From the NCBI RefSeq assembly GCF_009769385.1, contig NZ_VKAB01000047.1, positions 1 through 64,000 on the forward strand: 64,000 nt of DNA. The letters run 5' to 3'. Numbering within the stretch: position 1 is the stretch's first letter; each line of letters starts with the position of its first letter. The notes under the pieces were generated by a model. The model saw only the letters and a program-made list of their open reading frames with translations, had not been told where the DNA came from and did not search any database. This document shows, in pieces, positions 16,790 to 36,047 of this stretch. The position numbers and the translations under genes were made by a program. The DNA comes from Saccharothrix deserti (GTDB taxonomy: Bacteria; Actinomycetota; Actinomycetes; Mycobacteriales; Pseudonocardiaceae).

Positions 16790-18256
16790 TTACATGTAGT
16801 GGGCGTAGCGGGTGGCAACGGCTTCGTTTGGTGGGCAGAAACGCAGTACGGCTTTTACCTGGTTGGCGGTGCGCAGAGTGACGGGCACCCTGCCGTCCAG
16901 GCGTGTCTGGTTCCAGTTCATCTTGGTCAGGGCCAGGATTTCGCTGGCTCGGTCTCGCGGGCTGCGGCTGCTGTGAACGGAGCGGATGCCGATCGGCTGT
17001 GGCACGTACATGCCGGGATACGTCGAGTAGAACTCAATACTTCCGTTGGTATAGAGGGCCACCTCGTTCTGGTCGAGGGTGAGCAACGTTCCGCGCAGCG
17101 GAGGCGCGTTGCCGGGCCGGAAGAGCCGTGCACCCTCGCTGTTGGTGATCCAGCTCATGTCGAGTTCATCGAGCGTTCGTTCGTCTGCCGCTGCCTGGAA
17201 TCCTGCGACCTCGGCGGCGGTGAACGATGAGGTCTTGTGAAGCGCCACTCTTGCGGGCATGGTCCGGTGTTCCTGCCGGTAGGCGTCCAGCGCGCGCAGG
17301 AGCAGAGCGTGAGCGTCATCCTCGGCAAGGTGTGGTTGACGGTCTTCGCGGCTTACCCTGGCAGGCCCACCGCGCACGATGACTCCGTCTCCGCGTTCGT
17401 TGAACACTTGCGCTACCGACGTGTCCAGCGTGTTGCGGTCCCCGCTGTTGTAGAAGGCGACGCCGATATAGCACGAGGTCAGATCGGTAGGGTTCCGTGG
17501 GAGCCGCCACGGAACGCCGCCCGCTTTGTAGTACAGGGCGACGTGGAGATTCCAGGCGCGGGTTGCCTCGTCTTGGCGGCTGCGGCCAGCAGGCGGCGGG
17601 GTCGCCTCGTCCCAGGTGCTTCGGCGGATGATCTGGATTGGCTGTCGCAGGTGCAGTAGCCGGGCCTTGAGCAGGTCGTGGAAGTTCGCGAAGCGCGGCA
17701 CGGCTGGCCCTTGGGCGCTCGGACCGTCAGATGCTGTCGCCGCGGCGGCCGTTGATCGAGATTGACGTCCGGTTTTACGTCGGGTGTCGGTGAGCTGTTC
17801 TGGCCGTGCCACCAGCAGGACGTCAACACGGTTCTCGTCCGCGAGTGCTCGGATCTCGTCGGCGTACGCCTCGACTGCGGTTGTCAACGACTGGGCACCC
17901 GTGGTGCTGCTGATCGCCCGCAGGGCTCGATCGCTGATCGCTCGTGTGTTGCGGTCGCTGAACACGAGTGTGGTGTGCAGGCCACAGTCAATGTCGCACC
18001 CTGGGAAGCCGGGGAACAGGTGGGGATAACGGTCGTCTTTTGCGGCGATGGGTTCGCGGCAGCGTTCGAGCCAGGTTCGTATGCCATCGAGTTGATCAGA
18101 TGGCCCGACGAGGCCGACACGGATGACGCGGGGCGCTTCCTCGGAGCCGAGGTCGGCGGGGCCGTAGTTGCTGATTCCGAACCGGGGGTCGATGTGTCGT
18201 CCCGCGCCACCGAACTCCAGCTCGGGCTCGTCGAGGACCTCAGCGCGCATCATCAC
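16790..18256 (-). CDS. Short prokaryotic Argonaute (MID-PIWI), SPARDA type
   Basis: 488 aa. The N-terminus, VLDEPELEFGGAGRHIDPRFGISNYGP, is the opening of short Argonautes. Later blocks FHDLLKARLLHLRQPIQIIR (about 205-224), NLHVALYYKAGGVPWRLP, SVAQVFNERGDGVIVRGG, ARVALHKTSSF (about 345) and ILALTKMNWNQTRLDGRVPVT match the MID and PIWI domains. The length and lack of PAZ fit the short class, which has an inactive PIWI and relies on a partner effector. The GTG start overlaps the stop of the DUF4365-APAZ gene by 4 bp, as in such pairs. Known SPARDA complexes use guide RNA to detect invading DNA and unleash the effector nuclease, killing or stopping the infected cell. Confidence 0.9.
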   Translation of the reverse strand: MMMRAEVLDEPELEFGGAGRHIDPRFGISNYGPADLGSEEAPRVIRVGLVGPSDQLDGIRTWLERCREPIAAKDDRYPHLFPGFPGCDIDCGLHTTLVFSDRNTRAISDRALRAISSTTGAQSLTTAVEAYADEIRALADENRVDVLLVARPEQLTDTRRKTGRQSRSTAAAATASDGPSAQGPAVPRFANFHDLLKARLLHLRQPIQIIRRSTWDEATPPPAGRSRQDEATRAWNLHVALYYKAGGVPWRLPRNPTDLTSCYIGVAFYNSGDRNTLDTSVAQVFNERGDGVIVRGGPARVSREDRQPHLAEDDAHALLLRALDAYRQEHRTMPARVALHKTSSFTAAEVAGFQAAADERTLDELDMSWITNSEGARLFRPGNAPPLRGTLLTLDQNEVALYTNGSIEFYSTYPGMYVPQPIGIRSVHSSRSPRDRASEILALTKMNWNQTRLDGRVPVTLRTANQVKAVLRFCPPNEAVATRYAHYM

Positions 18257-19740
18257 TCCTGTCCTCGGCGGGATGCCTGGCGTGGCCGACCGGTCCTTCG
18301 TTGGTGCTTGGCTTTCGGGTCGCCGGTGCCGTGAGACGGCGCGTCCGGCTGGGGCTGCAACTCGGGGTCGGTGAAGAGAGTGAACAGATCGTCGGTGTCG
18401 ATGCCCGCGGCGGCCAGATCGGCAGCGGCGGCCCGGTCGGACGGCGAGTCGCCCGGCTCGTCGTCAGGGGCTGCTTCGACCGGGGCTGCGCCCCACCATT
18501 TGTCATCGATGCCGCGGTCGACAGTCACGGTGAGCAGGTCCCCGAAGCGGAGCTGGCGATCCGAGTTGAATAGATCATCGTCGCCGCGCAGGTAACGAGC
18601 CCACATCTTGGTCCAACTCGCGACGGCGGCGTGTCTGTCGAGCTTCTTGATGCCCGTGAGCAGGCTGTCGGCGTAGCGCGATTCGGTGTAGCCGTCCGAG
18701 GTGAAGCAGTAGTCGGGCTCTAGTTGGCAGTACCACGTGCCGGCGATCCGCCGGATACGGGTTCGCAGTGCCGCATGGTGGTAGTAGCCCACCCGTTCGG
18801 GGTCCGACTTCAGGAAGTGCGGCCCGAAAACGGTGCGTCCGGGTGTACCTCGCGCTTTCCCGACCTTGCGCGGTTTCAGTCCTGGCGTTGCCCTGAAGTG
18901 GAGGTGCTCGCGTTCCTTGTGCCAACGCAGATCGGGATAGCAGTCCTGCATGGTCCGACTGAGGAGGTCGGCGAACCGGTTTGTGACCTCGCGTTCCTCG
19001 CTGGTCGCCCACTCACTCGTGTCGTGTTCTTCGACATCACCCTGGCACAGGACTCGTAGCGGCGCTTCACGAAGGTTCGAGAAGGAGAGCACGAGCCCGT
19101 CCCGCAGGATCCAGCCTGATCGCCGTACCGTCTGGCCTGCTAGTAGGTTGCCTGCTGTGGGGTAGTCGGTCGCTGACGTTGTTGCCAGGTAGATGTGTGA
19201 CGGGAATTCGTTGATCGGCAGCAGGTTGGTGGTGAGTGTCTCGGTGATCGGCGGTGGCCGGAGGTACAGGCCCGACTCTCGGGGGATACCGAGGCGAAGG
19301 AGCGCCGGGGCGGCGTCCGCGTCGAATCGCTGAGTGTTTTTGTTGACGATGACAGTTCGGGTGGCGCGAGCCGTCGCGTCCGGGAATGCAGCGTGTACGT
19401 CGACCCACCATGCTTGGTCCTGCTCGGGGTGAGAAAAGATCAAGATGACGGGGGCGTTCCCTGACAGCCACAGGTCCAGGTCACGCTCATCGCACAGGTA
19501 TCGAAATTCGTCGTCGGTCTCGAACGAGAACGGTCGATTTTGGGCCTTGCTTTGAACAAGCAGGACAAGGTTCAGGAGTGCGCCGCTGTCCGGGTCTACT
19601 AGGTCGATGTGACCGTCGATGCCGTGATCAACCCGCCGGGGGTGGAACAGGTAGCCCATCTCGAGGCACCGGGTGCCGATCAGGGAGATGCCCTTCTCTC
19701 CGATGATCGTTTGAGACGTGACCGTCTTACGCTGGGCCAC
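18253..19740 (-). CDS. DUF4365 (DREN)-APAZ effector nuclease of a SPARDA system
   Basis: 495 aa. The first 165 residues are a DUF4365 Mrr-like nuclease: HPRRVDHGIDGHIDLVD with D42, then NLVLLVQSKAQ with Q63 and K65 giving the D...QxK active site, and WWVDVHAAFPD. The middle and C-terminal part (about 190-420) is an APAZ-type region with DGLVLSFSNLREAPLRV and GTPGRTVFGPHFL. The last 70 residues are low-complexity and acidic, then basic. DREN-APAZ proteins form heterodimers with short Argonautes and, once activated, degrade DNA and RNA indiscriminately. It lies directly upstream of the Argonaute with a 4-bp overlap, and 131 bp after the unrecognised gene. Confidence 0.88.
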   Translation of the reverse strand: MAQRKTVTSQTIIGEKGISLIGTRCLEMGYLFHPRRVDHGIDGHIDLVDPDSGALLNLVLLVQSKAQNRPFSFETDDEFRYLCDERDLDLWLSGNAPVILIFSHPEQDQAWWVDVHAAFPDATARATRTVIVNKNTQRFDADAAPALLRLGIPRESGLYLRPPPITETLTTNLLPINEFPSHIYLATTSATDYPTAGNLLAGQTVRRSGWILRDGLVLSFSNLREAPLRVLCQGDVEEHDTSEWATSEEREVTNRFADLLSRTMQDCYPDLRWHKEREHLHFRATPGLKPRKVGKARGTPGRTVFGPHFLKSDPERVGYYHHAALRTRIRRIAGTWYCQLEPDYCFTSDGYTESRYADSLLTGIKKLDRHAAVASWTKMWARYLRGDDDLFNSDRQLRFGDLLTVTVDRGIDDKWWGAAPVEAAPDDEPGDSPSDRAAAADLAAAGIDTDDLFTLFTDPELQPQPDAPSHGTGDPKAKHQRRTGRPRQASRRGQE

Positions 19741-19871
19741 TGGACCTCCCCTGCCGTGGACGATCTGTCGAGGTTACGCGCGACCTCCGACAATCTCGGC
19801 TGACCAGCGCTTCCGGTGAGCCGACACCTGGCGTCGACCCCTCGGGTCGTCGATGGTGGCCGCTGCGGCTT

Positions 19872-20723
19872 CTACTGTCCGGCGCGTTCAGAGCGCCGGT
19901 TGAGCAGACCGGCTGTGGCGGTGACCAGTGCAAGTACGTCCTCGCGCGTCCACACGAAGTGCTCGGTGGTGCCGGGATCGTCGTGTGCGGCTCCACTGAG
20001 CAGGGAGAAGACGTCCTCGACGAGGAAGGCCCAGCGCTCGCGCTGGTCACGATCCCGACGGGCTTTCGAGCCAGCCTGACGCACAGTGTCGGATGTGCTC
20101 TCGGCGGCGCGGATCGCCTCGACGGCCTTGCGGGCTTCGCCGAGTGCCTCCTCCAGGTGGTTGTGCCGGATGAGCTCGCGCGCCTTGCGAAGCCGCCGTA
20201 CGCCGGTCGCGTGTTCATTGTCGCTGGTCAGTGGCACGAGGATCTCGATGTAGGAGCCGGCGTCAACGCGCTCCAGCTCTCGCGCCCATTCACCGCTGGG
20301 TAGGTCGAAACCGAGTTCTCCCGTTCCACCGGCCAGTTGCGCCGGGTCGCCGTCCACACAGGTCACGCTGACCTGGAGGGTGACCCAGAGGTGATCACCC
20401 CCTTCGCGCAACGCTTCCGCCACACGCAGTTGTTCGTCGGTAACGAAGCCGGTCAGCGTGAGTTCTGTGGCCACCTGGGCGGGGTTGGTCAGGTGGCCAG
20501 CCGACAGGTGGGTGAGGAGTCGTCGATCTCGGCTGGGGTCCGTGCCGATGAGCATCGCCGCGGACACCTGGTACGGCGGGGCGTCCTTGCGCTCGGAGGT
20601 CCGCCTGACGGTGACACTCAACTGGACCTGCGCACCGCCGACGGCTGGCCAGAGCCGCAAGGCGCGGCGAGCGGGCTCGAACGCCAGTGCCTCGGCAGGT
20701 GCGATGTTGATGTGAAGCGTCAT
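19872..20723 (-). CDS. Unrecognised protein between McrC and the SPARDA pair
   Basis: Predicted 283 aa starting MTLHINIAPAEALAFEP. The first half looks beta-rich (WPAVGGAQVQLSVTVRRT, SYIEILVPLTSDNEH at about 177). It is followed by a long charged helical stretch (RLRKARELIRHNHLEEALGEARKAVEAIR) and a helical C-terminus. An upstream GTG at 20789 is possible, but the ATG at 20723 fits better. No catalytic motif is evident. It is separated from McrC by 115 bp and from DREN-APAZ by 131 bp, in the same direction as all of them. Its position inside a defence gene run makes it a candidate accessory or regulatory component (inference only). Confidence 0.65.
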   Translation of the reverse strand: MTLHINIAPAEALAFEPARRALRLWPAVGGAQVQLSVTVRRTSERKDAPPYQVSAAMLIGTDPSRDRRLLTHLSAGHLTNPAQVATELTLTGFVTDEQLRVAEALREGGDHLWVTLQVSVTCVDGDPAQLAGGTGELGFDLPSGEWARELERVDAGSYIEILVPLTSDNEHATGVRRLRKARELIRHNHLEEALGEARKAVEAIRAAESTSDTVRQAGSKARRDRDQRERWAFLVEDVFSLLSGAAHDDPGTTEHFVWTREDVLALVTATAGLLNRRSERAGQ

Positions 20724-20838
20724 CGGCGGCAACCGTTCATTCCGGTGGAGGCTAACCGGACATTGTGCACCCGCGTGGCTCGTAGGCACGGATCTTGGCG
20801 GCGTGTCGGCCGCACGGGGTACCCGCGACTTCGATCAT

Positions 20839-22014
20839 TCAGACGATCGTGGCGGCTACCGCGTTCGCAATGCGGCTGGCTTGCTTAAGGATGTGGTCCG
20901 TGGGCTGAGAGAGGTCAAGTACCCAGGTACGGAGCTTGGTGCCGGCCTCGCGCACGGTGTGGGAGCTGGGTGCGTCCCCCGAGGCGTATACGAGGTGCCC
21001 TTCGGGTACGCCGAGGGCGGTGCAGTAGGCAAGCATCTGGTAGAGGTCTGCGTGGGGCCGATCGTCGTCCTTCACCCTCTTGTATTTGGCGTCAAGGACG
21101 GCGGCAGGTCGAGCGTGCCGTTCCCAGACGAGATCGGGGCGGATGCGGAGTTGCCGCATCGTGTCGAGATGACTGGGGTACTGGTCGCGCAGCCGGCCTC
21201 CGTAGGGTTCGAGTGCGCGGCGGAGCGTGATGGTGAGCCAGTCTTCGAATGCCTTGTTGAGATCGAAGAGAAATCCGCTGGCCGCGGTGGAGCCGGGTGG
21301 CTGATCGATGCTTCGTCCGGCGAGAACGACACGAGCCAGTCGGAGTGCCGGTTGGTAGTGGCGTGTCAGCCTGGTCGGCGGGGTGTCGGGCGGCGTGTCC
21401 CCGGCGACCAACGGAGTGACGTCAGCCAGGGTGGTCAGCAGTTGACGAAGACCGGCATGGGTCGCCAGCGGCAGGCCCGGAACACGGAGCAGCCGGCGAG
21501 CGGCGGTGAGCAGGACGCGGTTCTCGGGGATGTCGACGGTGTAGTCGTCGTAGCGGACTTCAAGGGGCACTGCGAGGCCGAGGCGCTGGCGGAGCTGGTC
21601 GGCTTCACGTAGGCGACCACGCAGGAGCGGGAGCGCTTCTTCGACGGTGCGGTAGCCCTGGAGCACTCCGTGGGAGAGAGCTCGACGGGTTGCGGCGTGG
21701 AAGGACACGGCTACCGCAGTGACGAGGTCGTCGACAGTGGCGAGGTCCACGATGTCGTCGTCGCGCCAGCCGTTGGGATCCTGGGCGTGGCCGAGGAGCC
21801 ACAGCAGCCGATGGATCCCGATCTTCGGGGTGACCCGGAGTTCGATCTCGCCGCATCGAAGCACGCCGACGTACGACGATGCCTTGAGTACGGTGCGGCC
21901 TTCCAGGTCTGCGCTGACTTTGACCGCTCCGGTGGCGGTGAGCCCGTCGGCTATGGGCCGGGCGATCGGGCTGAACGCTCGGGCTTGATGTTCGGGCACG
22001 GTCAGCCGCCTCAC
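20839..22014 (-). CDS. mcrC: McrC-like nuclease subunit of an McrBC system
   Basis: 391 aa. The N-terminal region contains LKASSYVGVLRCGEIELRVTPKI, typical of the McrC beta-rich domain that contacts McrB. The C-terminal PD-(D/E)xK nuclease motif is RIRPDLVW (about 290) and AAVLDAKYKRVK (about 302-313), supplying the catalytic Asp, Asp and Lys. McrC is activated by the McrB GTPase ring to cut methylated DNA. The start overlaps the McrB stop by 4 bp (ATGA). Confidence 0.93.
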   Translation of the reverse strand: MRRLTVPEHQARAFSPIARPIADGLTATGAVKVSADLEGRTVLKASSYVGVLRCGEIELRVTPKIGIHRLLWLLGHAQDPNGWRDDDIVDLATVDDLVTAVAVSFHAATRRALSHGVLQGYRTVEEALPLLRGRLREADQLRQRLGLAVPLEVRYDDYTVDIPENRVLLTAARRLLRVPGLPLATHAGLRQLLTTLADVTPLVAGDTPPDTPPTRLTRHYQPALRLARVVLAGRSIDQPPGSTAASGFLFDLNKAFEDWLTITLRRALEPYGGRLRDQYPSHLDTMRQLRIRPDLVWERHARPAAVLDAKYKRVKDDDRPHADLYQMLAYCTALGVPEGHLVYASGDAPSSHTVREAGTKLRTWVLDLSQPTDHILKQASRIANAVAATIV

Positions 22015-24248: not shown

Positions 24249-24250
24249 GG

Positions 24251-27200
24251 TTACGACCTCCGGTTCGGGTGGCGGGGCCCATGCCCAGGCGCGGTATCGA
24301 GTGGGCTGACGAACTGGCCTTCCGTCATCGAGTCGTACACCGCGAGCACCAGGCGCCTTGTACGGAACTCGCCGTACTTCCGCTCCTCGTTTTTGCGCAG
24401 CACAAAGAACGAGTCGATGACGTGCTCGGCATCGCTCCTGTCTAGCCCGTAAAGGTGCAGATAGGCGGCGTCGAGTTCGGCGCGCAGCTGCGCACGCCGT
24501 TCCTCCTCCCATCGGAATGGAGGTCCGTCGTCACCGAGATCACGGGCATACGGCTGAAGGTCCCACGCCGTGTAGGACAACTCCAACACTCGCGCCGTCA
24601 CCCAGTCGCGCAAGTTGGTTTCAGGACACCAACTTGGTTCTTCGTCGTACCGCGCTGGAGGAAGCACTGGAAGCTGCTTAACGACGTGATACTTAAGCGA
24701 CGCGCCAGAATGTTTCTGTCGGGCGCAGTAGTCAAGCACGAGCGATGATAGGTTTGACTGCAGGCATGCCGCCTGCCCACTGCTGATATGCAGTAGGAGA
24801 AACTTGTCGCCAACTGCTGCACGTGGGATTACAGTGGCGATCATTGTTCGTTCATCAGTGTCTTTTGCGACGTCTCGCCAACCCAGCAGCCAAGGGTGGC
24901 TCCATCTGTCCGCCAGGCCAGCATCCACATCGCTTTCAGGTACCCAGTACCGTGGCCACACCACGGCGTCGGGATCATCATGGATTGCGACTGGGAGCTT
25001 CGGGAGAGTGCCTTTGTTGAGTTGTGCCTGGGTCGCGCCAGCGTATGTGGCGTACCTATGGTCATAGTGATGTGTCATTTTTGCTTCATAGAGCGGCAGC
25101 ATTCGAGCGCCCTCGAGCTCGAATGCTGCCCCGGTGGCTGTCCAGCCGGCATCGCGTAGTGCGGGCTCTTCATGGAACTTGCCGGAGTCGGTGGACATGT
25201 CGAGCATCCTCTGGAAGGAAATGTTCCAGGGGTTTCCGTCGGCTGTGCCGTCGCGCCAGAGTACAGGAAGCAGGCGGTGAATGTTGACGGTTATCCGTGC
25301 GTCGCGACGGCTGCGGAAGATGGGACTCGTTCCACTGTTGGGATTGACTTGTAGGATTTCAGCCGATTGGAGCGGGAAGCGGCGCTCAGAGAGTTGATGC
25401 GCGTGCCTCGTCGAGAATGCAAACGAAGCCACTTCCACGGTTCGCCCTCCCGTGGCGACCAGGATCGCAAAGCGGAACCTGTTGGTGACACTGGGGAATA
25501 TCTTCGCTTCATTCTCGAAGTCGAGAAATGCCGAGAGGGTGTTAGTGTTGACTAGTCGACGGAAGAACGGCGCGGTTGTGTCACCCGTGGCGATGCCCGT
25601 TGGAAGCACAAGTCCAGCGAAGCCGCGCTTGACTGTCAGAGTCAGTGACGCCTCAGCGAAGAGGGCGTACGTATCGATGTCGCCGCGCCCAGTAAGTGGG
25701 TATCGGCCGGACGCTCGGGCGAACAAACTAGCCAAGTCCGCGTCTCGAACTGCTTCACGATAGAGACTCCACAGGGCCGGTCGATCAGCCTCCAGTTTGC
25801 TGATCATCTTCTTACGGGCTGCGGAGTTCGATGCCTCAGCAATCTCCGGAGCGCTGACTGCGAAGTATTGTTGCTCCTTGAGCTTCAACTTTCCCCACGG
25901 GGGGTTGCCGAGGATGCAGGTGAATCCTTCGGGGAGTACGTCGGGAAATTCGAGATGCCAGTGGAAGAAGTGGTGCTTGTCTCGAATTCGGCGCACTTCG
26001 GTCAGTTGGTCTGCTGTGATCCCGGACAGGCCTTGATTGGTGATGCGCCGGATATCGCCCACTGTGGGGGCGGGTGCCTTGCCTGGCTGGTGGTGCCAGA
26101 GGAAGGCAGCGCACCAGGCATCAGCAGCGAGTCGAGCCTGAGCCAACACCGGGTCTTCTTCCGCCGCCTGCCAGGCGGCGGCCTTGGCGTGCACATCGGT
26201 CAGGGTATTTTCCGGAGCGTCGGCGAGCTCTTGGAACGCCTTGCCAAAGTCCGGGGTCGGTGTTCCGAAGTCAAGTTCGGCTTGTTCAGAGTGGATGGTC
26301 TCATCGCGGTTGCGACGTTTGCGCTTCGACAGGGTTGCTGAGTCGTCGCCGGGGAGGGCGGTGAATGCTGCTTCGGGGAGTCCACCGTCGACGAGTTCGG
26401 GTGTCGTGCCGAGCAGTGCGTTACCGACCTTGATGTGAGCGTCTAGGAAGGACAACGGACGGCCCGGTTCGAGGGCTTCAAGCCAAAGTGCCACTTTCGC
26501 CAGCTCAGCGGCGAGCGGATTGAGGTCGACGCCGTACAGGCAATGGCTGATGACATCGCGCATGGCGTCGCGGAGCGCAGGTTCAGGGGGTTCGGCCTCG
26601 CCCGTCCGGTGGGATGCAACTCGCCGTGCGATGCGTCGGCCTGCGGCAACTAGGAAATGTCCCGAGCCACAAGCGGGATCGCAGACAGTGATGGCAAGGA
26701 GCGCAGCCTCCGGATCAGGGTCCGTCATGGCTTCGTCGAGAACAGGTTTCAGGGTCTCCTCGAGCAGGACGTCGACAAGGTCCGACGGGGTGTAGTAGGA
26801 ACCGGTCTTTTTGCGGTCGTTTCCTGCTGCGACATCGAGGGTGTAGCGGCCAGATTGGGCGTCGTAGTCCGGGACGAGTTCGAGGAGTGATTCGTAGACG
26901 CTGCCGAGTTCTTCGGCGCCGAGGTTGCGGTAGTCCACTGCGCGAGCCATTCCGGTCTCGTCCCGCGTGAGAGACAGGGCTCGAACGGCGGCAAGGAGGT
27001 CGCGGTTGGTCAGGGAGGCGTTTTCGATCGGGCCGAGCGCGCCGTTGTCATAGACGCCACCGAGGCCGGGTAGACCGAGTGCTGGCAGTCCGTCTTCGTT
27101 ACCGAGGCCTCGGGTGATCAGGCGCAGCGCGGTCCATAGGTCGATGTGACGTTCGGTGGTGTAGCGGCCTTGGGCTTTACGGCGTAGTCGATCTGTGGAG

Positions 27201-28174
27201 AAGTGCTGGGCATAGCGGCGGCGTTGTTCGGGGGTGGCTTGGTCGTGATGGAGGAGATTGCGGTCCTCAGCGACGAACAGGACCAGCAGTTGGTAGACCA
27301 CCCGGAGCACGAGCCGGTGGTACTCGCGAGCGGTGAGCGTGCCGTCTCGAAGTTGGTCCCGCAGGGGAGGTGTTGCGGTCAGGAATCCGGCACCGAGGAT
27401 GTTTAGGGCCTGCTGGACTCCGGCCGAGAGCCGTTTGAGGGCGCGAGTTCCGCGGGTGGTGGAGTCTTCTCGCCAGCGTTCCAGCCAGCAGGTGGTGGGC
27501 GCGGCTGACGGATCCGGTTGCGGTTCAACGCGGCTGGCGTGGCAGAGCTGCCACATCACGGTGAAGTCGGCGAACACCTCTCCGTCGAACATCCCGGCGA
27601 GGTCGAACTGGACGTATGCCTGGCGGACGAGTGCGGCAGAGTCCCGCAGCAGGCGCAACTCGAGGCCGTTGGTGAGGATGCCCCACAGGTGGTCTGGCGA
27701 GCGGTTGAGGAGTTCTTGCAGCATGGAGTGCGGTGCTTGTCGCGCGGCGCCGACTACACCGGGCGTGCGGTGGTCGAGGTCCACGCCGACGCCGAGCAGG
27801 TGCAGCGGGGTCCGCTGCCACAGGTGGCTCACCGGATAACTGGCATCGCCGACAGCAACGCCGCCTGCGGGAACTGCGGGAAGACGACCGTAGCCGAGTT
27901 CGTCGAACAGGACTCGCAGCCATTGGGAGCGGGTGGTTTCGATCTGGTGGCCGGTGTCCTCGCCGGGTGGCACCGTGCGCCGGAAGGCCAGCCAGGCGCC
28001 ACGCAGTCGCTCCCAGGAACGGTTGGCTGCTTCGCGCACTGTTTCGGACTCGGCGAGGCCGTAGGTGCCGGGTTTGAGTCCGTCGAGCTCACCGGTGGTG
28101 ATGGCTTCGAGGGTTTCCGGGGGCAGCAGGCCACCAACGGTCCGGATGGTGCTGACGGTGTGGGCGCGCATCAC
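24251..28174 (-). CDS. Large N6-adenine DNA methyltransferase, DrmMI/Eco57I-like
   Basis: 1307 aa. Methyltransferase motif I, ITVCDPACGSGHFLVAAGRR, is near residue 495, and the catalytic motif IV, FTCILGNPPWGKLKL (NPPW), is near 755, which together mark a gamma-class N6-adenine enzyme. An N-terminal helical domain with SQWLRVLFDELGYG and the signature KKTGSYYTPSDLVDVLLEETL just before motif I match type IIG and DISARM DrmMI-like proteins. The C-terminal part, with YDEEPSWCPETNLRDW, is probably target recognition. No nuclease motif is evident. GTG start, 4-bp overlap with the SNF2 helicase stop. Its likely role is to mark self DNA for the co-transcribed helicases. Confidence 0.88.
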   Translation of the reverse strand: MMRAHTVSTIRTVGGLLPPETLEAITTGELDGLKPGTYGLAESETVREAANRSWERLRGAWLAFRRTVPPGEDTGHQIETTRSQWLRVLFDELGYGRLPAVPAGGVAVGDASYPVSHLWQRTPLHLLGVGVDLDHRTPGVVGAARQAPHSMLQELLNRSPDHLWGILTNGLELRLLRDSAALVRQAYVQFDLAGMFDGEVFADFTVMWQLCHASRVEPQPDPSAAPTTCWLERWREDSTTRGTRALKRLSAGVQQALNILGAGFLTATPPLRDQLRDGTLTAREYHRLVLRVVYQLLVLFVAEDRNLLHHDQATPEQRRRYAQHFSTDRLRRKAQGRYTTERHIDLWTALRLITRGLGNEDGLPALGLPGLGGVYDNGALGPIENASLTNRDLLAAVRALSLTRDETGMARAVDYRNLGAEELGSVYESLLELVPDYDAQSGRYTLDVAAGNDRKKTGSYYTPSDLVDVLLEETLKPVLDEAMTDPDPEAALLAITVCDPACGSGHFLVAAGRRIARRVASHRTGEAEPPEPALRDAMRDVISHCLYGVDLNPLAAELAKVALWLEALEPGRPLSFLDAHIKVGNALLGTTPELVDGGLPEAAFTALPGDDSATLSKRKRRNRDETIHSEQAELDFGTPTPDFGKAFQELADAPENTLTDVHAKAAAWQAAEEDPVLAQARLAADAWCAAFLWHHQPGKAPAPTVGDIRRITNQGLSGITADQLTEVRRIRDKHHFFHWHLEFPDVLPEGFTCILGNPPWGKLKLKEQQYFAVSAPEIAEASNSAARKKMISKLEADRPALWSLYREAVRDADLASLFARASGRYPLTGRGDIDTYALFAEASLTLTVKRGFAGLVLPTGIATGDTTAPFFRRLVNTNTLSAFLDFENEAKIFPSVTNRFRFAILVATGGRTVEVASFAFSTRHAHQLSERRFPLQSAEILQVNPNSGTSPIFRSRRDARITVNIHRLLPVLWRDGTADGNPWNISFQRMLDMSTDSGKFHEEPALRDAGWTATGAAFELEGARMLPLYEAKMTHHYDHRYATYAGATQAQLNKGTLPKLPVAIHDDPDAVVWPRYWVPESDVDAGLADRWSHPWLLGWRDVAKDTDERTMIATVIPRAAVGDKFLLLHISSGQAACLQSNLSSLVLDYCARQKHSGASLKYHVVKQLPVLPPARYDEEPSWCPETNLRDWVTARVLELSYTAWDLQPYARDLGDDGPPFRWEEERRAQLRAELDAAYLHLYGLDRSDAEHVIDSFFVLRKNEERKYGEFRTRRLVLAVYDSMTEGQFVSPLDTAPGHGPRHPNRRS

Positions 28175-30987
28175 GTCCCCGCAGGCAGGTAGAGGTAGAC
28201 GCCGAGGATGTCGGCGGGGCGTTGGGCGGTCACGGTGAGACCTCGGCGGATGAGTTCGCCGGTGCTGCCGGCGGCTTCTCGTACTCGGCGGTGGCTGGCG
28301 AGGAGTTCGGCGGCTAGCCGGTCTCCCTCGTCATCCAGGTGGGGAGTGAGGCGGTCCAGGCGAGCCTGGACACGGCGGATGTCTTCGGCGGCGAGATCAC
28401 GGGGAATGTTGCCAGCAGGCCGGGCGTCCAGCAGGGTGGTGACCTCGTTGTCGGGCAGCCATTCAGGCGTGACGGCACTGCCGCGGTAAGCGAGTAGCCG
28501 AGCTTCTTCCACGACCATCGACCGGCGTTCGGTAGTGGTGGGCAGTGTGAGGTGCAGGCGGTAGCGCAGCAGGAGCAGGGTCGTGCGGGTGTCGACGGCC
28601 TCGGTGAGGAGTACTCCGCACCGCCTGGCCGGCCGGTCGGTGCCTGTCTCGGGGTCGAGTGCGGTGTCGAGGACGTAGCGGGCGAGGGTTTCGACGGAGG
28701 GGTCGGTGCGGGCCAAGACCGCTCCGCCGTCGGGCGCGGGTGGGGTTCGTACGAGTGGAAGATCGGTGGTGGTGCCGAGTTCTTCCCGCAGTGCGGATGG
28801 CAGTCCGTCTAGTGCGGCGACGTACCCGTCGGATGCGGTGGTCAGCGTGGCCCGCAAGGAGGTGAGCGCGTCCACGACGAAGGTCTCGGTCTCGGCCGGG
28901 CCGCCAAGCGCAGCGCGCAGGGCATCGACCTCGCGGGAGACCTCGTCGGGTTTGATCTGTTCCTGGGCGAACAGGCTGCGGGAGCGTTTCTCGCGTTGTG
29001 CTGCGTCGTCCCACCGCTGGTGCAGGTCGGTGCGGGCGGTTTCCTCGACGCCTTCCAGTTGGAGTTGGTCGCCGGTCTCGGCGCGCAGGACGCCTTCCAA
29101 CACGGCGGTGAGGACGGCGTCGCTGTCTTGGGGGACGGGAACGGCGACCCCGGTGTCGGCTTGGATGGCGCGGTGGCGGCGCAGCAGCACGTCCAGCACG
29201 AGACCGTCGATGCCGTTGTCTTCGCCGTAGTAGGTGATCGCGTACACGTCGGGGGCGCGTTGTCCGAATCGGTCGACGCGGCCTTCGCGTTGCTCCTGGC
29301 GGGTGGGGTTCCACGACAGGTCGTAGTGCAGGACCGCAGTGAAGTGGTCTTGCAGGTTGACCCCCTCGGACAGGCAGTCGGTGGCCACCAGGACGCGGCG
29401 CTCGGCTTTGCCGAGTTCGGCGACGCGGCGTTCGCGTTCCTCCGGTGGCTGGGCGCCGGTGACCCAGGCGACTTCGACGTCCGGCAGCGCCTGGCGCAGT
29501 GCGGTTCCCACGTACTCGGCGGTGGCGATGTAGCGGCAGAACACCACGATGGCGTCGCCCGCTTCCACCCGGTCGCGGACAAGCCCGATGCCCTTCTTGA
29601 GCTTCGCGTCCTTGGCGCCGCGCAGTCGATCGGCGTCCTTGGCCAGCCGCAGCAGACGAGCCCGCGGTGTGTCTTCTGCGGGTAGCGCCCCGGCGGTGGT
29701 GTCGCGGCCGTCGATGGCTTCGTCTTCGTCGGGGAGATCGAGGACGCCGGCTTGGCCGCGGATGTCGGCTTCCTCGACGGTGGTCACATCGTCCTCGCCG
29801 CTGCGGTTGCGCAGGGTCGCGGCGGCTGCGGCGGGCGAGGAGGCCATCGCCCGCAGCAGCGCGAGGATCGACCACCAGCGGACCCGCTGGTGCACCGGGC
29901 CTCCGGCCGAGTCGCGCACGGTCTCGCGGGCGTAGCGCAAGACCTGGTCGAACAGCTTGCGGTAGTCCGGTGTCAGCCGGTAAGTGGCTTCCAACGGGAT
30001 GCGGTTGGGGAATGGGGTGTCTTCGTCGAGGTAGGTCTTGATGTCGCCGCGCTGGCGTTGCACGACGTGACGGGCGATGCGTTCGCGGTCGCGGCGGCGC
30101 GCGTCGCCGGACAGGTCGTCGGGCAGCTCCGCGAGAGACTTATCCAGCAGCCCGAGCAGTGCCCGAAACGCTTCCGACTTGCCGCTGTGCGGGGTTGCGG
30201 TGACCAGCAACAGATGCCGGTCGGGGTCGGCGGCGAGGCGGGACAGCAGCGTGTAGCGCTGCTGGCTGGCGCGGGCGGTGCGGCCATCGGCGGCGCCGAC
30301 GCAGGTGTGGGCTTCGTCGACGATCACCAGGCCGGGACAGGCCCGGATGAACTCGTCCGCGCGCCGTGACGACTTGATGAAGTCGGTGGACACCACCGTG
30401 TACGGGTAGCGCTCGAACAGCGATTCTCCGGCGGGCAGGTTGCGTTCCAGGCGGCCGGCGGTGGAGGGCAGGACCAGTTCGGCGTCGAGTCCGAACTTGT
30501 CGGCCAGCTCCCGTTGCCACTGTGGTGCCAGGGCGGGGCTGCACATGACGGTGAACCGGTCGACGCTGCCCTGGGCGAGCAGTTCGGCGACGATCAGACC
30601 GGCTTCGATGGTCTTGCCGACGCCGACGGCGTCGGCGATCAGGAGCCGGACCGTGCGCATGCGCAACGCCATCAGCAGCGGGACTAGTTGGTAGGAGCGG
30701 GGGCTCACTGCGATTTGCGCCAGACTGCGGAACGGGCCGCCGCTGGACCGGAAGCCCAGTCGCAGCGCGCTGCGGAGCAGGCGCGCGCTCACCGCGTCGC
30801 CGAGGTCCTCGGGGTCCGGTGGCGCGAAGGTCGCGGACTCGACCGGTTCGAGGTCCGGGAGCACTCCGGCGATGTCGTCCACGCCGCCGCCCAGCGGGCG
30901 AAGGAGAAGCAGGTCGTGGGTGCTGTCGGGCAGCACGACCCAGTCGCGGCCACGGGCTCGCACCAGGGAACCAGCTGCCCAGCTCAC
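28171..30987 (-). CDS. SNF2-family helicase, DrmD-like
   Basis: 938 aa from a GTG that overlaps the upstream stop by 4 bp, with GGAGG nine bases before it. Superfamily 2 motifs appear in order: Walker A IADAVGVGKTIEAGLIVAEL (about 118-137), LVIVDEAHTC (about 222), LLLVTATPHSGKSEA, then in lobe 2 LVATDCLSEGVNLQDH (about 535) and REGRVDRFGQR (about 565). The QREGRVDRFGQ form of motif VI is SNF2/RapA-like. The C-terminal 350 residues are helical and probably bind partners. In DISARM, DrmD of this type acts with an adenine methyltransferase, and the gene for one follows here. Confidence 0.88.
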   Translation of the reverse strand: MSWAAGSLVRARGRDWVVLPDSTHDLLLLRPLGGGVDDIAGVLPDLEPVESATFAPPDPEDLGDAVSARLLRSALRLGFRSSGGPFRSLAQIAVSPRSYQLVPLLMALRMRTVRLLIADAVGVGKTIEAGLIVAELLAQGSVDRFTVMCSPALAPQWQRELADKFGLDAELVLPSTAGRLERNLPAGESLFERYPYTVVSTDFIKSSRRADEFIRACPGLVIVDEAHTCVGAADGRTARASQQRYTLLSRLAADPDRHLLLVTATPHSGKSEAFRALLGLLDKSLAELPDDLSGDARRRDRERIARHVVQRQRGDIKTYLDEDTPFPNRIPLEATYRLTPDYRKLFDQVLRYARETVRDSAGGPVHQRVRWWSILALLRAMASSPAAAAATLRNRSGEDDVTTVEEADIRGQAGVLDLPDEDEAIDGRDTTAGALPAEDTPRARLLRLAKDADRLRGAKDAKLKKGIGLVRDRVEAGDAIVVFCRYIATAEYVGTALRQALPDVEVAWVTGAQPPEERERRVAELGKAERRVLVATDCLSEGVNLQDHFTAVLHYDLSWNPTRQEQREGRVDRFGQRAPDVYAITYYGEDNGIDGLVLDVLLRRHRAIQADTGVAVPVPQDSDAVLTAVLEGVLRAETGDQLQLEGVEETARTDLHQRWDDAAQREKRSRSLFAQEQIKPDEVSREVDALRAALGGPAETETFVVDALTSLRATLTTASDGYVAALDGLPSALREELGTTTDLPLVRTPPAPDGGAVLARTDPSVETLARYVLDTALDPETGTDRPARRCGVLLTEAVDTRTTLLLLRYRLHLTLPTTTERRSMVVEEARLLAYRGSAVTPEWLPDNEVTTLLDARPAGNIPRDLAAEDIRRVQARLDRLTPHLDDEGDRLAAELLASHRRVREAAGSTGELIRRGLTVTAQRPADILGVYLYLPAGT

Positions 30988-33900
30988 GAACGTCCACCTC
31001 CGAAAACGGTCGGCATCCTGTCGATGACCGCGGCCCAATCCTCGCCCTCACGGAGCCGCAGCACGTGCCACCGAGGACGGGCCAGAAGCCGTTCCTCGGC
31101 GTCCTCGTCGGTGAGGGCATCGTTGTGGCCGTCGTCGATGAACACGCCGTACCGCCCGACGGCCAGGTCGTATACGAAGTGCGGGCGCGCTTGTGCTTCC
31201 TCGACGAGCACGTCGACGGCGTCCGGGAGCCGTGCGCCCTTGGCGCGCAGCAGGTCGATGAACGGGTGCTCGCTCACGACCCCATTGGAGGGAGCGTCTG
31301 GCGGGGCCGGGACGGCGCCCATCGCGGGTGCTGCCGGGACGGTGGTGGCGTCGGCGAGGTCGCGCAGCATCGTGACGATCGAGTGGCGGTCCAGCAGGAG
31401 GTGGTCGGGCTGGTTGCCGTAGGACAGCAGGCAGTCGTAGCAGGCGCGTTCGCAGCGTTCGGTGCCGGGTTGGGCGGAGCCCCGGTCGTGGCCGTCCTGG
31501 TCGAAGTGCAGGATGTCGAGCGCTTCACGGGCGACGAGGCCGAGGTCGTAGTGCTCGCCGGCGACGAGGTTGCGCAGCACGCCGGCACCGCCTTCGGCGG
31601 ACTCGTACAGCAGGATCCGGCGGCGTTCTCGGGTGTTGGGCAGTGCTTCGGCGGCGAGTTCGTTGTCTTCGAGGTCGAATGCCGCCTGGATCCCCCGTTT
31701 GAGCGCCCACTGCAAGGTCGCCAGCCGCTCCGGGGAGACCTGGTCCGACCAGTGCACGACCAGGGTGTTGCGACGGTCTTCGACGAACGGGATCACGAGC
31801 TCGGGCGGCGCACCGGCCGCCGCCGCAGCGGCGCGGCCTTGGCGGTTGCGCTGGGGGCGTGGCTCCCACCGTCCGCTGGTGGGGTTGATGAAGTAGCCGT
31901 CGGGTGTGCCGGGTGCGCGCCGTCGCAGGCCGATGTTCATCCGGCGGATGGTCGCGGTGTCGGCGTAGGTGAGCCGCGCGAGCTCGCGCCCATCCGCGGC
32001 GACGACCCGCGCCTCGCGTCGGGCGTCGGGTCCGCTGGGCGGCAGCCCGACTGCCGTGACCAGGTCGAAGCCCTGGCGGCGGCGTTCTTCCTCGTCGGAG
32101 GAGATCCGCTCGCGACGGCGGGTGGTCGCGGTGGTCATCCGCAGCAGGTTCGGGACGGACGCCCCGAGATCGACGTTGCAGATGTCGCAGTGGTCGTCGG
32201 AGTCGTTCCACAGCGTGCCGCAGTTCTCGCAGCGCTTGGCTCGTTCCAGCGCGAGCCGGCCGTCGGCCTCACCGCGGGAGGGCACTGACACCTTCACGAC
32301 CTCGTAGCGAGCGCCCTCGTGGTAGACGAAGGCACCCGGCCCGAACTCGCTGATCGCCAAGAACCGCGGACGGGACAGGTAGTCGCCGTCACGGCGGCGG
32401 CCTCCGGCTCGGGCAGGGATGAACGCCGACACCGGCAGCCGCGGGAACGAGTAGCCAGGCAGGAAACCTTCGGTGGCGAAGTAGCGGTAGCTGTAGAAGT
32501 CGCTGTAGCCCAGCTCGTCCGATTCGTTGCGCAACAGATTCAGCTTCGTCGCGGCTTCCAGATACTGCGCCCTGGCACGGTTGACAGCGTCCGCCGAGGC
32601 GGCGGCGTCGGTGAGCACTCGGTTCGCCGCAGCCATCTCGGAGCGCGCCGCCCGGAATGCTTCACGCCACCGGTCGCAGGCGCGGTCGAACTCCTCGACG
32701 GCGTCCTCGACGGTGCGCCGGATCCAGTCCTCGTCGAACCACGGCGCGTCGGCGATCTCCTCGACGGTGCCCAGCACCTGCCGCGCCCGGTGCAGCGCCC
32801 GTTCCGCCGCTGCACGGTCGGACAGGGTGTGCCGCACTGTGGGCTCGAGTTCCAGGCTCGGGTCGTCACCGCTGACATCCAGCAGCTCGACCAGGGACTT
32901 TCCGAGTGGCTGGCGTGTCTCGGCCAGCCAGATGGCGTGGATGTGGGAACGCAGGAGATCTGCGTTGGCCAGGTCAAGGCGGGGCGGGGCGACGGCGCCG
33001 GCCACCATCCGCGCGGAGCGGTGGAAGTAGTACTGGTCGTGCGCGCTGCCGGTGGTGCAGTAGGTGACCACGATCGCGGGCTGCCCGGCGCGACCGGCGC
33101 GGCCGGAGCGCTGAGCGTAGTTGGCCGGGGTGGGCGGGACGTTGCGCAGTACAACGGCGTTGAGGGTCGCGATGTCGACGCCCAGCTCCATCGTGGGAGA
33201 ACAGAACAGGGCCTGCAGGCCGGCGTGACGGAATGCTTCTTCACGCTCTTCGCGGATCGGTGCCGGGACCTGTGCGGTGTGTTCTGCCGACCGCAACCCG
33301 GTCAACCCGGCCGCGAGAGTGCGGTAGAAGTCGACGAAGTACGGGTTCGGGGCCGCGCCGGTCTCGCCAGGCGCGTTGCGCAGAGGGTCCGGTGCACGCG
33401 TGACGCCATCGCCGGCCAACCAGCACAGTGCTGCCGCGTTGAGCTGATACGCCCGCTCGCCTCGGTCCTCCTCGACGACGGTCACCAGGCCGTAGATCGC
33501 GAGTGCGTCCAACATTCCGACGATGGTCAGCTCGGTGTCGGCTGCGGTGATCCGCGGCCCGTCCCCGCGCAGCTGGCGGCGCAGGTACCGGCCATATGCC
33601 GAGAGGCCGGAAATGAACGCGTCGCCCCGGGTGTCGTCCTGCCGCCGGGACCGCGGCCAGACCCGGCCCGCGAGAAACCGCTCTTCCTCGGCGATCGTCC
33701 ACGGATCACGCAGATGCTGGTCCGAGAGGTTGCGAACGGCCTCGAACCCGTCAGCGGTCAGCGCGGCCACCCTGATCGCCAGCGCTCGGCGCATTTCGTC
33801 CAGCAACACCCGCGCCAGAGCCTCGCGCCGCTCGGCGGACACGTCGGCCAAGAGACCACTGCGCCAGATCTCGTCGTCGGCGCACGCTTCGTCCAACGCG

Positions 33901-36047
33901 ACGTAGTCGATCCTGAGCAACGCGGACTGTTCGAGGTTCGGCATCGTGATCCGCCAGCCGCGCTGCAGATCCTGGTAGAGCCGGTAGGAGACCGCTTCCC
34001 GAAGTGCCCGTTCGGCCTCCTGCCGGGCGAGGCCCCGCACGTCCGGTTGAAGCGCGTACTCCTCGCGCGGCAGCCCGAGCGCCTGGACGACCGCGCTGGC
34101 CATCGTGTCGTGCCGCAACCCGTCCGGACCCGCCTCAGCCACGGCCCGGTGCAAGGCGCTACGCAGCAGACCGACCTGGACGAAGTCGTTGAAGTGCCCT
34201 GCCTGCAGTGAGGCATCCTGCCGATTGTCGGTGAACGACAGCACCTTCCGGGCGTCGTCACGCAGGTCCTCGCCGCGCAAGGCTCGCACCAGGCTGGACG
34301 CCAACACCGTCGTCGCCGAGCTTCGGCCCTCGGAGCCGAGGCTGGACAACTTCGCGAAGTCCTGCTGGCGCGCGGATTCATACGACACGCGGCATCGCAG
34401 GCAGAACCGGAAGGGCGCGGACACGAACGCCGCCGGGATACCGCCCTGCCCGTGCACGTCTTCGTGACCGTCTGGCTGCACGACGACTCGTACAGGCACA
34501 TGGTCGGCCTTGGTCGGATCAATCTGCTCCGCTCCGGGGCGACCGACCAGCCAACCGGTGGGGAGTCGTTCCATCACGTCGGTCGGGTCGGCGGGCCACG
34601 GGGTCGTGGTGTCGACGTACAGGTAGCCGCTACGGGCATCACCAGCGGCATCGTCCGGGAGCCGCGGCCGGAACCCGTCCGATGTGCGAATGACCGAGAG
34701 GTACTCCTGGCCGCATTCGCGGCAGAACGCAAGCGGTGCGAGAACGGCGTCGGGGCGGCCTGGCACAGCCAGTTGATACCGGGTAGTGAGGTAGCGATCG
34801 GCTTCCGGCTCGATCGAGCAATAGACGGTGTCGCCCTTGCCGATGAACTGGTGCAGCCGGAACGCGAAAAGCGAACGGCCGAAATCATCGAGCTGTTCCG
34901 CGCCGGCCAGCAGCACCTGTCGAAGCGCGCCCGTGCAGGTGGCCTCATCCAGCCCCGTGCGACGCGCCAGATCTGTGGCCGCGTCGGAGAGCTTGGTGGG
35001 CGGTTGGCGAACGAGCCGTCCGTCGACCGTCGCCACGCCGAAGGTCGACTCCACCCATGCGGCCAGAGGATCATCCCGAAGATCCTCGACTGCCCCGACG
35101 TTCTGAACGGCGGCGCGCAGGGCGTCGTCGTCCGGGTCAGGGGTGCTGCGGGTGGCTCGGCGCAACGTCTCACCGATCACGTGCTGCGGCTCCACGCGCG
35201 TGCCGAACAGCCGCCCGGCTACCTCGGCGATCGCCTCACGCTGTTGCTCCAGCGTGCCCGGCCCGGCCAAGGTCGCGGAGGTGCCGACGTACTGCACCGA
35301 CGGGCTACCACACGCATCACGCACACGCCTGACCAGCATCGCAACGTCCGCGCCCTGACGGCCGCGGTAGGTGTGCAGCTCGTCCAGCACGAGAAACCGC
35401 AGCTCGCCCGCCTGATCAACAAGCCGACGCCGCTCATCGGGGCGGGTCAGCAGCAGGTCGAGCATCACGTAGTTGGTCAGCAGCACGTCCGGCGGATGCT
35501 GCAGGATCTGCTCCCGCTGCTCGTCGCTTTCCTGGCCGGTGTAGCGGGCGAAGGTCACTCGCCGATCCGTGTCGCCCAAGAACTTCGCCAGCTCCAGCTC
35601 CTGGCTGTTGGCAAGCGCGTTCATCGGATACACGACGATGGCGCGAACACCACGACCGCTACCTTCCCGCAGCACGTGGTCAACGATCGGAACGAGGTAC
35701 GACAAGCTCTTGCCCGACCCGGTACCCGTGGTCAACACGTAGCTCGCACCAACCCGGGCCGCCGCCACCGCGTCTCGCTGGTGCTGATGCAACTGCAAGC
35801 AGCGGCCACCCACCTGGAAGATCTGGGCGCACGCGGGATGCAGAACCCCCTCTGCGACGAGTTGCCGGATATCGCCCCCACCGGCGAACGCGGGGTTGAG
35901 TGAGAGCCACGGCTCCGGCCACAGCAACCCGGCGTCAAGCTCGCGGTCCACCAAGCTGCGGATCCGGTCGTCGCGTACGCGCAGGAACCCGTCGACGTAG
36001 CGGCGGTAATCATTGACCAGCCGATCACGCACCGCGAAGACATCCAC
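30984..36047 (-). CDS. Giant DEAD/DEAH helicase with DUF1998 and nuclease-like tail
   Basis: About 1687 aa. Lobe 1 has Walker A VLTTGTGSGKSLSYLVPIV (about 105-120) and FLVLDELHTYRGRQGADVAM (about 215-235). Cys pairs CRECGQEY (about 448) and CLRCRVSY (about 552) suggest a zinc site. Lobe 2 has FCSPTMELGVDIATLNAV and QRSGRAGRAGQPAIVV (about 980). The DUF1998 cysteine cluster CERACYDCLLSYGNQ is near 1535. The last 90 residues, HFVYDLAVGRYGVFIDD with a WHVLRLREGEDW strand, resemble a Vsr/DUF559-type nuclease fold. The family is YprA/MrfA and DISARM DrmA/DrmB-like. The GTG at 36047 is preferred, and the frame is open to 36167. It is first in the long defence operon. Confidence 0.87.
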   Translation of the reverse strand: MDVFAVRDRLVNDYRRYVDGFLRVRDDRIRSLVDRELDAGLLWPEPWLSLNPAFAGGGDIRQLVAEGVLHPACAQIFQVGGRCLQLHQHQRDAVAAARVGASYVLTTGTGSGKSLSYLVPIVDHVLREGSGRGVRAIVVYPMNALANSQELELAKFLGDTDRRVTFARYTGQESDEQREQILQHPPDVLLTNYVMLDLLLTRPDERRRLVDQAGELRFLVLDELHTYRGRQGADVAMLVRRVRDACGSPSVQYVGTSATLAGPGTLEQQREAIAEVAGRLFGTRVEPQHVIGETLRRATRSTPDPDDDALRAAVQNVGAVEDLRDDPLAAWVESTFGVATVDGRLVRQPPTKLSDAATDLARRTGLDEATCTGALRQVLLAGAEQLDDFGRSLFAFRLHQFIGKGDTVYCSIEPEADRYLTTRYQLAVPGRPDAVLAPLAFCRECGQEYLSVIRTSDGFRPRLPDDAAGDARSGYLYVDTTTPWPADPTDVMERLPTGWLVGRPGAEQIDPTKADHVPVRVVVQPDGHEDVHGQGGIPAAFVSAPFRFCLRCRVSYESARQQDFAKLSSLGSEGRSSATTVLASSLVRALRGEDLRDDARKVLSFTDNRQDASLQAGHFNDFVQVGLLRSALHRAVAEAGPDGLRHDTMASAVVQALGLPREEYALQPDVRGLARQEAERALREAVSYRLYQDLQRGWRITMPNLEQSALLRIDYVALDEACADDEIWRSGLLADVSAERREALARVLLDEMRRALAIRVAALTADGFEAVRNLSDQHLRDPWTIAEEERFLAGRVWPRSRRQDDTRGDAFISGLSAYGRYLRRQLRGDGPRITAADTELTIVGMLDALAIYGLVTVVEEDRGERAYQLNAAALCWLAGDGVTRAPDPLRNAPGETGAAPNPYFVDFYRTLAAGLTGLRSAEHTAQVPAPIREEREEAFRHAGLQALFCSPTMELGVDIATLNAVVLRNVPPTPANYAQRSGRAGRAGQPAIVVTYCTTGSAHDQYYFHRSARMVAGAVAPPRLDLANADLLRSHIHAIWLAETRQPLGKSLVELLDVSGDDPSLELEPTVRHTLSDRAAAERALHRARQVLGTVEEIADAPWFDEDWIRRTVEDAVEEFDRACDRWREAFRAARSEMAAANRVLTDAAASADAVNRARAQYLEAATKLNLLRNESDELGYSDFYSYRYFATEGFLPGYSFPRLPVSAFIPARAGGRRRDGDYLSRPRFLAISEFGPGAFVYHEGARYEVVKVSVPSRGEADGRLALERAKRCENCGTLWNDSDDHCDICNVDLGASVPNLLRMTTATTRRRERISSDEEERRRQGFDLVTAVGLPPSGPDARREARVVAADGRELARLTYADTATIRRMNIGLRRRAPGTPDGYFINPTSGRWEPRPQRNRQGRAAAAAAGAPPELVIPFVEDRRNTLVVHWSDQVSPERLATLQWALKRGIQAAFDLEDNELAAEALPNTRERRRILLYESAEGGAGVLRNLVAGEHYDLGLVAREALDILHFDQDGHDRGSAQPGTERCERACYDCLLSYGNQPDHLLLDRHSIVTMLRDLADATTVPAAPAMGAVPAPPDAPSNGVVSEHPFIDLLRAKGARLPDAVDVLVEEAQARPHFVYDLAVGRYGVFIDDGHNDALTDEDAEERLLARPRWHVLRLREGEDWAAVIDRMPTVFGGGRS

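Follow-up and report, generated by a model that had tools for sequence, protein, structure and literature searches.

ARMADA type I systems are generally composed of a YprA-family helicase gene, followed by a BrxHII-like helicase gene and a PglX-like methyltransferase gene, and their protection is described as direct and non-abortive in the available text of PMC12458937. According to the same source, ARMADA type I has its DUF1998 domain fused to the helicase, while DISARM encodes this domain in a gene of its own, with a PLD nuclease gene behind it. An association of McrBC with a DISARM-like cassette or system was described twice by Bell et al., in bioRxiv in 2025 (PMC12458937) and in eLife in 2024 (PMC11090510). 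In SPARDA, RNA-guided recognition of DNA leads to collateral nuclease activity and then to cell death or dormancy (PMC12205087). PafBC is activated by ssDNA and directs the housekeeping RNA polymerase to PafBC-dependent promoters (PMC11804915).

During the analysis of a 64,000-nucleotide stretch of Saccharothrix deserti DNA (hereafter the window), taken from contig 39 (66,962 bp) of a 10.8-Mb genome, genes of both kinds of systems were recognized in one run. This run is probably a composite anti-phage cassette of ARMADA type I with McrBC, a gene X, and SPARDA, which would carry two PafBC-type promoters and be induced by ssDNA.

Gene Content and Layout of the Cassette

The cassette consists of eight minus-strand ORFs (36047-16790), as called within the window (Table 1). 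The initial annotation had described eight co-directional genes over 19 kb, with gaps of 115 bp and 131 bp around a gene of unrecognized product, here designated gene X. All eight ORFs are present and both gap lengths are exact, but its count of six tight junctions among seven is wrong: five are tight and two are gaps. Four junctions are 4-bp overlaps (YprA/SNF2, SNF2/methyltransferase, McrB/McrC, and DREN/Argonaute), the methyltransferase/McrB junction is the sole 2-bp gap, and the 115-bp and 131-bp gaps follow McrC and gene X, respectively. The SNF2/methyltransferase overlap is probably 1 bp rather than 4 bp, because the ATG at 28171 is the only start kept in the Crossiella relative described below. 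A check for terminators between the modules, suggested by the initial annotation, found no terminator-like site in the 115-bp or the 131-bp gap. A scan for sigma-70 consensus promoters returned 0 sites against 1.1 expected, and is uninformative at the G+C content of this DNA.

Table 1. Genes and promoter-like motifs of the cassette, in window positions.
Feature	Position	Strand	Evidence
P1: RecA-NDp/PafBC-type promoter motif TTGTCGG-N10-TACTCT, ARMADA head	36095..36117	(-)	exact match
YprA-family helicase (ARMADA type I helicase), 1687 aa	30984..36047	(-)	DEAD, Helicase_C, MZB
SNF2/BrxHII-like helicase (DrmD/DpdE-like), 938 aa	28171..30987	(-)	profile matches
PglX/DrmMI-like adenine DNA methyltransferase	24251..28171	(-)	Eco57I, N6_Mtase; DrmMI, type IIG (PADLOC)
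McrB GTPase, 745 aa	22011..24248	(-)	AAA_5; NxxD signature GTMNTADRS by eye
McrC nuclease subunit, 391 aa	20839..22014	(-)	PF10117, E 7e-54
Gene X, 283 aa, actinobacterial family	19872..20723	(-)	homologues; without Pfam, NCBIfam or PADLOC family
P2: RecA-NDp/PafBC-type promoter motif TTGTCGG-N10-TAACCT, SPARDA head	19771..19793	(-)	exact match
DREN-APAZ (DUF4365 nuclease fused to APAZ), 495 aa	18253..19740	(-)	DUF4365; PADLOC Aga_REase, 460 bits
Short prokaryotic Argonaute (MID-PIWI), 488 aa	16790..18256	(-)	PADLOC pAgo_I, 558 bits

By their profiles and order, the first five genes match ARMADA type I and McrBC. The YprA helicase gives its best PADLOC scores with models of DruE, above those of DpdJ and DrmA, as expected for ARMADA, and carries a fused MZB/DUF1998 domain (PF09369 at residues 1486-1580 of a 1727-aa frame). 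Its C-terminal part has no Pfam match, and a Vsr-like stretch (VYDLAVGRYGVFIDDGH) was recognized there by eye only. For the SNF2 protein, the top PADLOC score is that of one DpdE model and the top NCBIfam model is DrmD, below its cut-off. McrB matches AAA_5 (PF07728) and, below the cut-off, the NCBIfam McrB model NF008457; this AAA+ GTPase adjoins the McrC nuclease (PF07728, PF10117), and the two make up a McrBC type IV restriction pair. The initial label "DISARM-like" is replaced by ARMADA type I. DISARM itself was rejected, since a separate DUF1998 gene drmB and a PLD nuclease gene drmC are absent from the eight genes.

The last two genes are, by profile and structure matches, a SPARDA system composed of DREN-APAZ and an adjacent class I short pAgo, and the SPARDA-type label of the initial annotation is thus borne out. 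The Argonaute matches the solved SPARDA Argonaute chains 9qbp_B and 9jsb_A over nearly its full length, and DREN matches the solved DREN-APAZ chains 9jsb_D and 9qbp_A over about residues 4-420 of 495. Alignment by eye indicates that DREN retains the catalytic D...Q-x-K nuclease residues, as given for the DREN family in PMC12205087. These modules had been regarded as known separately; the link of ARMADA and McrBC is already in print (PMC12458937, PMC11090510), and therefore only the addition of SPARDA looks new. The words Argonaute, pAgo, and SPARDA are absent from the main text of PMC12458937, and no mention of a union of ARMADA, McrBC, and SPARDA was found in the accessible parts of the surveyed literature on these systems.

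Gene X is a real gene, as a codon model trained on the other seven genes scores it as coding. It has no Pfam, NCBIfam, or PADLOC family, and its comparison with PDB and Pfam profiles returned chance-level matches only. A low-confidence AlphaFold model from two gene X sequences (mean pLDDT 41.9), too poor for a fold search, suggests a beta-rich N-terminal part and a helical C-terminal part with S-x-A-x-H-x-D. Gene X belongs to a small actinobacterial family whose members stand alone in the other loci seen, and on the five plasmids examined neither SPARDA nor McrBC adjoins it. Four homologues (L015, L019, H32, and H34) are found no more than about 6 kb from an end of a linear or long Streptomyces plasmid record, two of them (L015 and L019) near a terminal gene annotated as a helicase. 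Neither gene X nor DREN matched any viral contigs.

Conservation and Occurrence of the Composite

The initial annotation had proposed a search for the same gene order elsewhere, and the same eight genes in the same order were found in Crossiella sp. S99.2, from another genus of the same family. Positions 16791-36117 of the window align with positions 797664-778309 of Crossiella with 85.4% identity across 19.4 kb. Protein identities are 93, 95, 85, 88, 92, 87, 93, and 93% in gene order from YprA to Argonaute, and the intergenic identity is lower, 77% and 81%. The dN/dS values of the eight genes are 0.05-0.19; the value of 0.19 for gene X indicates purifying selection. Both gaps and both motifs are kept in Crossiella. 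Conservation begins at the first base of P1, about 70 bp upstream of YprA, with an identical 31-nt stretch, and at the other end identity is down at background level no more than a few bases from the stop codon of Argonaute; the DNA directly outside the cassette is not alignable. Given this recurrence in another genus, the eight-gene grouping is more than chance.

Unrelated flanks on both sides were considered and rejected, as protein comparison revealed shared 5' neighbours. They are diverged (30-79% identity) and rearranged in order, and include PTPS/QueD-like, radical-SAM/QueE-like, NYN, NucA/B, and TPR proteins, among others. On the 3' side, Crossiella has an IS21 element and the window has unrelated genes followed by a Lamassu system. 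Because of the common 5' neighbours, a shared island history of the two genomes is possible, and because the neighbourhood is similar in both, no claim is made that the cassette moved as a mobile element. Cassette proteins are 84.6-95.4% identical between window and Crossiella, against 69-79% for three aminoacyl-tRNA-synthetase-family proteins, which would suggest exchange of the cassette between lineages after their split. The dS values do not show it: those of the cassette (0.28-0.95) are not below those of the three synthetase-family genes (0.37-0.41), and dS was rejected as a transfer clock.

Three further features of the surroundings were observed. PTPS/QueD-like and radical-SAM/QueE-like genes and a possible NUDIX gene, possibly 7-deazaguanine genes, lie at 52286-53611 of the window and at 768558-770362 of Crossiella. 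A CHAT-domain protein is encoded divergently from the cassette (36422-39337 (+)), without a match in a 54-kb Crossiella stretch. The Lamassu system (9276-12938 (-)), 3.9 kb beyond the Argonaute gene, is composed of LmuB (DUF3732) and LmuA with a Cap4-type nuclease and CTD7, and has no exact PafBC-type motif.

Within the cassette, divergence is uneven. The methyltransferase is 86-96% identical to that of Crossiella at residues 1-700, 74% at 901-1000, and 67% and 63% at 1001-1200; the diverged residues 900-1200 are the probable target-recognition part. In McrB, the N-terminal 400 residues are 82-84% identical, against 92-99% for residues 401-700 with the AAA+ part. Both patterns would be expected if target specificity were changing. 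The region for the methyltransferase C-terminus (24300-26300 (-)) shows a G+C dip, to 0.595 in 24001-26000. The low identity together with this dip suggests a change of specificity by recombination.

The joined order is rare. One genome per species was scanned for Argonaute relatives in 84,980 species with short exact patterns, which miss distant relatives, and 28 loci were found, with DREN preceding Argonaute in 23. At least 4.9 kb upstream of DREN is covered in 20 of these 23 loci, the other three being cut close upstream by contig ends. The composite was recognized in one of the 28, that of Crossiella sp. S99.2 (L021), where McrC, McrB, the methyltransferase, and gene X lie upstream. A Streptomyces locus (L036) has weakly similar SNF2 and methyltransferase genes downstream, and locus L024 has a weakly similar YprA gene. 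DREN was found in 0 of 24 other genomes of the own genus, and a close Argonaute in 6 of 390 genomes of the own family, including the own genome and Crossiella; the stretches fetched from the other four contain no composite (in one, G627, the contig ends only about 1 kb before DREN on the upstream side). Because the joined order is found in Crossiella, the composite is not private to this genome.

From the ARMADA side, a close SNF2 relative was found in 22 of 298 genomes of the own order, the own genome included. The YprA-SNF2-methyltransferase order is present at all 21 ARMADA-relative loci (L086 is cut inside the methyltransferase gene), and McrBC follows downstream on the same strand at 10 of them. 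Gene X, DREN, and Argonaute were found at none of the 21 in the stretches fetched, of which 19 extend at least 2.2 kb beyond McrC or the methyltransferase gene; L084 and L086 do not.

An alternative is that ARMADA-McrBC, gene X, and SPARDA are separate systems of one defence island, which lie in tandem by happenstance and share their orientation without any functional meaning. It would fit the separate occurrence of the modules: subject to the short stretches noted above, ARMADA-McrBC was not seen at 27 of the 28 Argonaute-relative loci or SPARDA at any of the 21 ARMADA loci, and gene X is alone on the five plasmids examined. The nearby Lamassu system and the promoter-like site of SPARDA itself also agree with it. 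Against it, a second genus has preserved all eight genes along with the two gaps and the two motifs, beside sequence that cannot be aligned. This alternative is rather unlikely.

PafBC-Type Motifs at the Module Heads

The alignment of window and Crossiella revealed TTGTCGG-N10-TAnnnT before YprA and again before DREN, where P2 sits 30 nt upstream and is conserved in Crossiella. We take this to be the RecA-NDp motif of PafBC, its letters being calibrated here on the genome matches, the genes downstream of them, and the recA site. Gamulin et al. 2004 reportedly gave the RecA-NDp motif as TTGTCRGTG-N8-TAnnnT. The pattern TTGTCRG-N10-TANNNT has two exact matches in the window against 0.06 expected, both directly upstream of module heads, and 0 of 100 shuffles of the window gave two matches. 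P2 was also considered as a hairpin or operator, which was rejected, as most of the other SPARDA loci, inspected by eye, do not preserve its inverted repeat.

Across the whole genome the pattern occurs 39 times and its reversed form 3 times. Of the 30 matches fetched, at least 8 stand at the beginning of a dispersed repeat roughly 60 bp long, and two others (L163 and L164) are identical copies over 1523 bp; the independent sites are therefore fewer than 39, and the raw 39 versus 3 overstates the number of promoters. P1 and P2 are both without the 23-mer of the repeat. The repeat copies (L139, L144, L148, L151, L154, L158, L161, and L165) begin with the PafBC-type pattern (TTGTCGGACCCCGTCGGTAAGAT-like); blastn shows the repeat to be shared by seven of the eight, and a search for a gene that regularly follows it gave none.

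Ten recognizable-looking downstream genes, hand-picked from the 30 fetched matches, were scanned with Pfam. Five of them encode a PD-(D/E)XK nuclease, a proteasomal ATPase, a beta-clamp paralogue, a RadA-like ATPase (labelled so from its domains), and a WGR protein, and are likely to have DNA-maintenance or proteasome roles. For the other five, which encode SWIM, mycothiol-S-transferase, DUF4240, BNR-repeat, and glyoxalase proteins, no clear part in repair is evident. A one-mismatch site lies upstream of recA. Two adjacent WYL genes are located 4.2 kb beyond a Pup-ligase-family gene in this genome, the place expected for pafBC.

The motif was searched for at other SPARDA heads, independently of the genome count, in 280 bp around the DREN start of 22 actinobacterial loci out of the 23 DREN loci, with Crossiella included and the window excluded. 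It is exact in 9 of 22 and present with 0-1 mismatch in 20 of 22; the two failing heads have two (L042) and three (L044) mismatches. Among the heads of other genes at the same loci, 3 of 177 have it with one mismatch and none exactly (Fisher p 3e-22 for 20/22 versus 3/177, a value that ignores relatedness; three Streptomyces loci share one identical site), and 0.5% of 4430 random stretches reach one mismatch. Outside Actinobacteria, where PafBC is not expected in SPARDA hosts, 0-1 mismatch was reached in 1 of 12 loci: 1 of 11 plasmid loci picked from 99 matching records (Haematobacter, one mismatch), and 0 of 1 from Chloroflexota (L041). In 18 sites chosen by the pattern (0-1 mismatch only, near-duplicates dropped), in which only the outside columns are free evidence, the flanking bases carry little more information than background (0.15 and 0.21 bits per column), and therefore the site is kept while its surroundings vary. 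By these pattern matches, SPARDA heads in actinobacteria generally carry the motif.

The same does not hold for ARMADA. Among 21 other ARMADA heads, the motif is exact in none, has one mismatch in one, and up to two mismatches in four, and its generality for ARMADA was rejected. Because the other ARMADA heads are mostly without it, P1 looks special to the composite.

Similar sites were observed elsewhere. An operon of a SIR2-like protein (GAGAS by eye) and a short Argonaute (G058; L014, oriented position 6950) has an exact motif about 100 nt upstream, and a second such actinobacterial operon (L012) has none. On plasmid pETH1 of Streptomyces sp. ETH9427 (L016, 6163-6185), an exact motif starts 160 nt upstream of the gene annotated as Cas3'' in a type I-C CRISPR locus.

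A single transcription unit, as the initial annotation proposed, is doubtful, because DREN-Argonaute has its own conserved promoter-like site; the conserved cassette and the gaps without a terminator-like site are the part of that proposal that stands. In its strict form the proposal is an obligate operon of all eight genes, read from one promoter and encoding one machine. This would explain the five tight junctions, the gaps without a terminator-like site, and the end-to-end conservation in Crossiella, but it is improbable given the motif conserved across actinobacterial SPARDA and the occurrence of each module alone elsewhere.

Proposed Working and Comparison with Known Systems

If the cassette is a composite defence with two promoters, transcription from P1, before YprA, would be able to read through as many as eight genes, and P2, before DREN, would be SPARDA's own promoter. 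Phage replication or cleaved phage DNA would give rise to ssDNA, and it is most likely that both modules are induced when PafBC senses it. The YprA helicase is related to DruE, which engages replication intermediates containing ssDNA (PMC13192584). ARMADA and McrBC would act on the DNA itself, depending on how it is methylated, and SPARDA, guided by RNA to invader DNA, would kill or silence the cell if they fail. Gene order, conservation, and the presence and enrichment of the motif are observed; transcription, induction, layered action, and any role of gene X are inferred.

Several observations weigh against this proposal. The motif is not general at ARMADA heads (0/21 exact), only two genomes are known to have the composite, the letters of the motif are calibrated only on this genome and the repeat feeds part of the genome count, five of the ten scanned downstream genes are without a clear repair role, intergenic identity (77% and 81%) is under that of the genes, and diverged 5' neighbours are common to both genomes. 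Taken more broadly, it is about an even chance that actinobacterial SPARDA generally belongs to the PafBC regulon and that here ARMADA-McrBC has come under the same switch, with restriction first and death afterwards.

To our knowledge, how Argonaute-based abortive systems are silenced and switched on is largely open. If the proposal is true, a DNA-damage activator would be the switch of Argonaute-based abortive defence, and an ssDNA signal of infection would be linked to Argonaute defence across many actinobacteria; the cassette would be one example of two defence modules sharing one kind of switch. In the full texts covered, PafBC and Argonaute occur together in one paper, on EVE domains (PMC7641849), and no damage-regulated short Argonaute is among the literature matches listed, a set with most subscription papers outside its scope.

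The PafBC/RecA-NDp regulon (PMC6789036, PMC8223512, PMC11804915) is resembled in the motif, in the pafBC-like gene pair, and in the sites at recA and maintenance genes. In their available text, these papers do not print the motif letters and name no Argonaute or phage-defence operon as a member. The WYL family, as far as described in PMC9122601, PMC9122588, and PMC10693628, is already tied to the control of phage defence, but those regulators are encoded with or adjacent to their systems, whereas the regulator proposed here would be the host PafBC, encoded elsewhere in the genome.

The published ARMADA type I with McrBC (PMC12458937, PMC11090510) shares YprA, a BrxHII-like helicase, and a PglX-like methyltransferase followed by McrBC; here gene X and SPARDA come after. 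The cassette head also differs in its PafBC-type motif, which is missing, with 0-1 mismatch allowed, from 20 of the other 21 ARMADA heads. CoCoNuT superoperons likewise combine several co-directional defence systems for which a shared signal is proposed, but that signal is thought to be cyclic nucleotides and the genes are others (PMC11090510). The Novosphingopyxis SPARDA (PMC12205087) shares DREN-APAZ, the short pAgo, and the Q-x-K residues. It differs from the system here, which is joined to ARMADA-McrBC, and from actinobacterial SPARDA, which carries a promoter motif of DNA-damage type.
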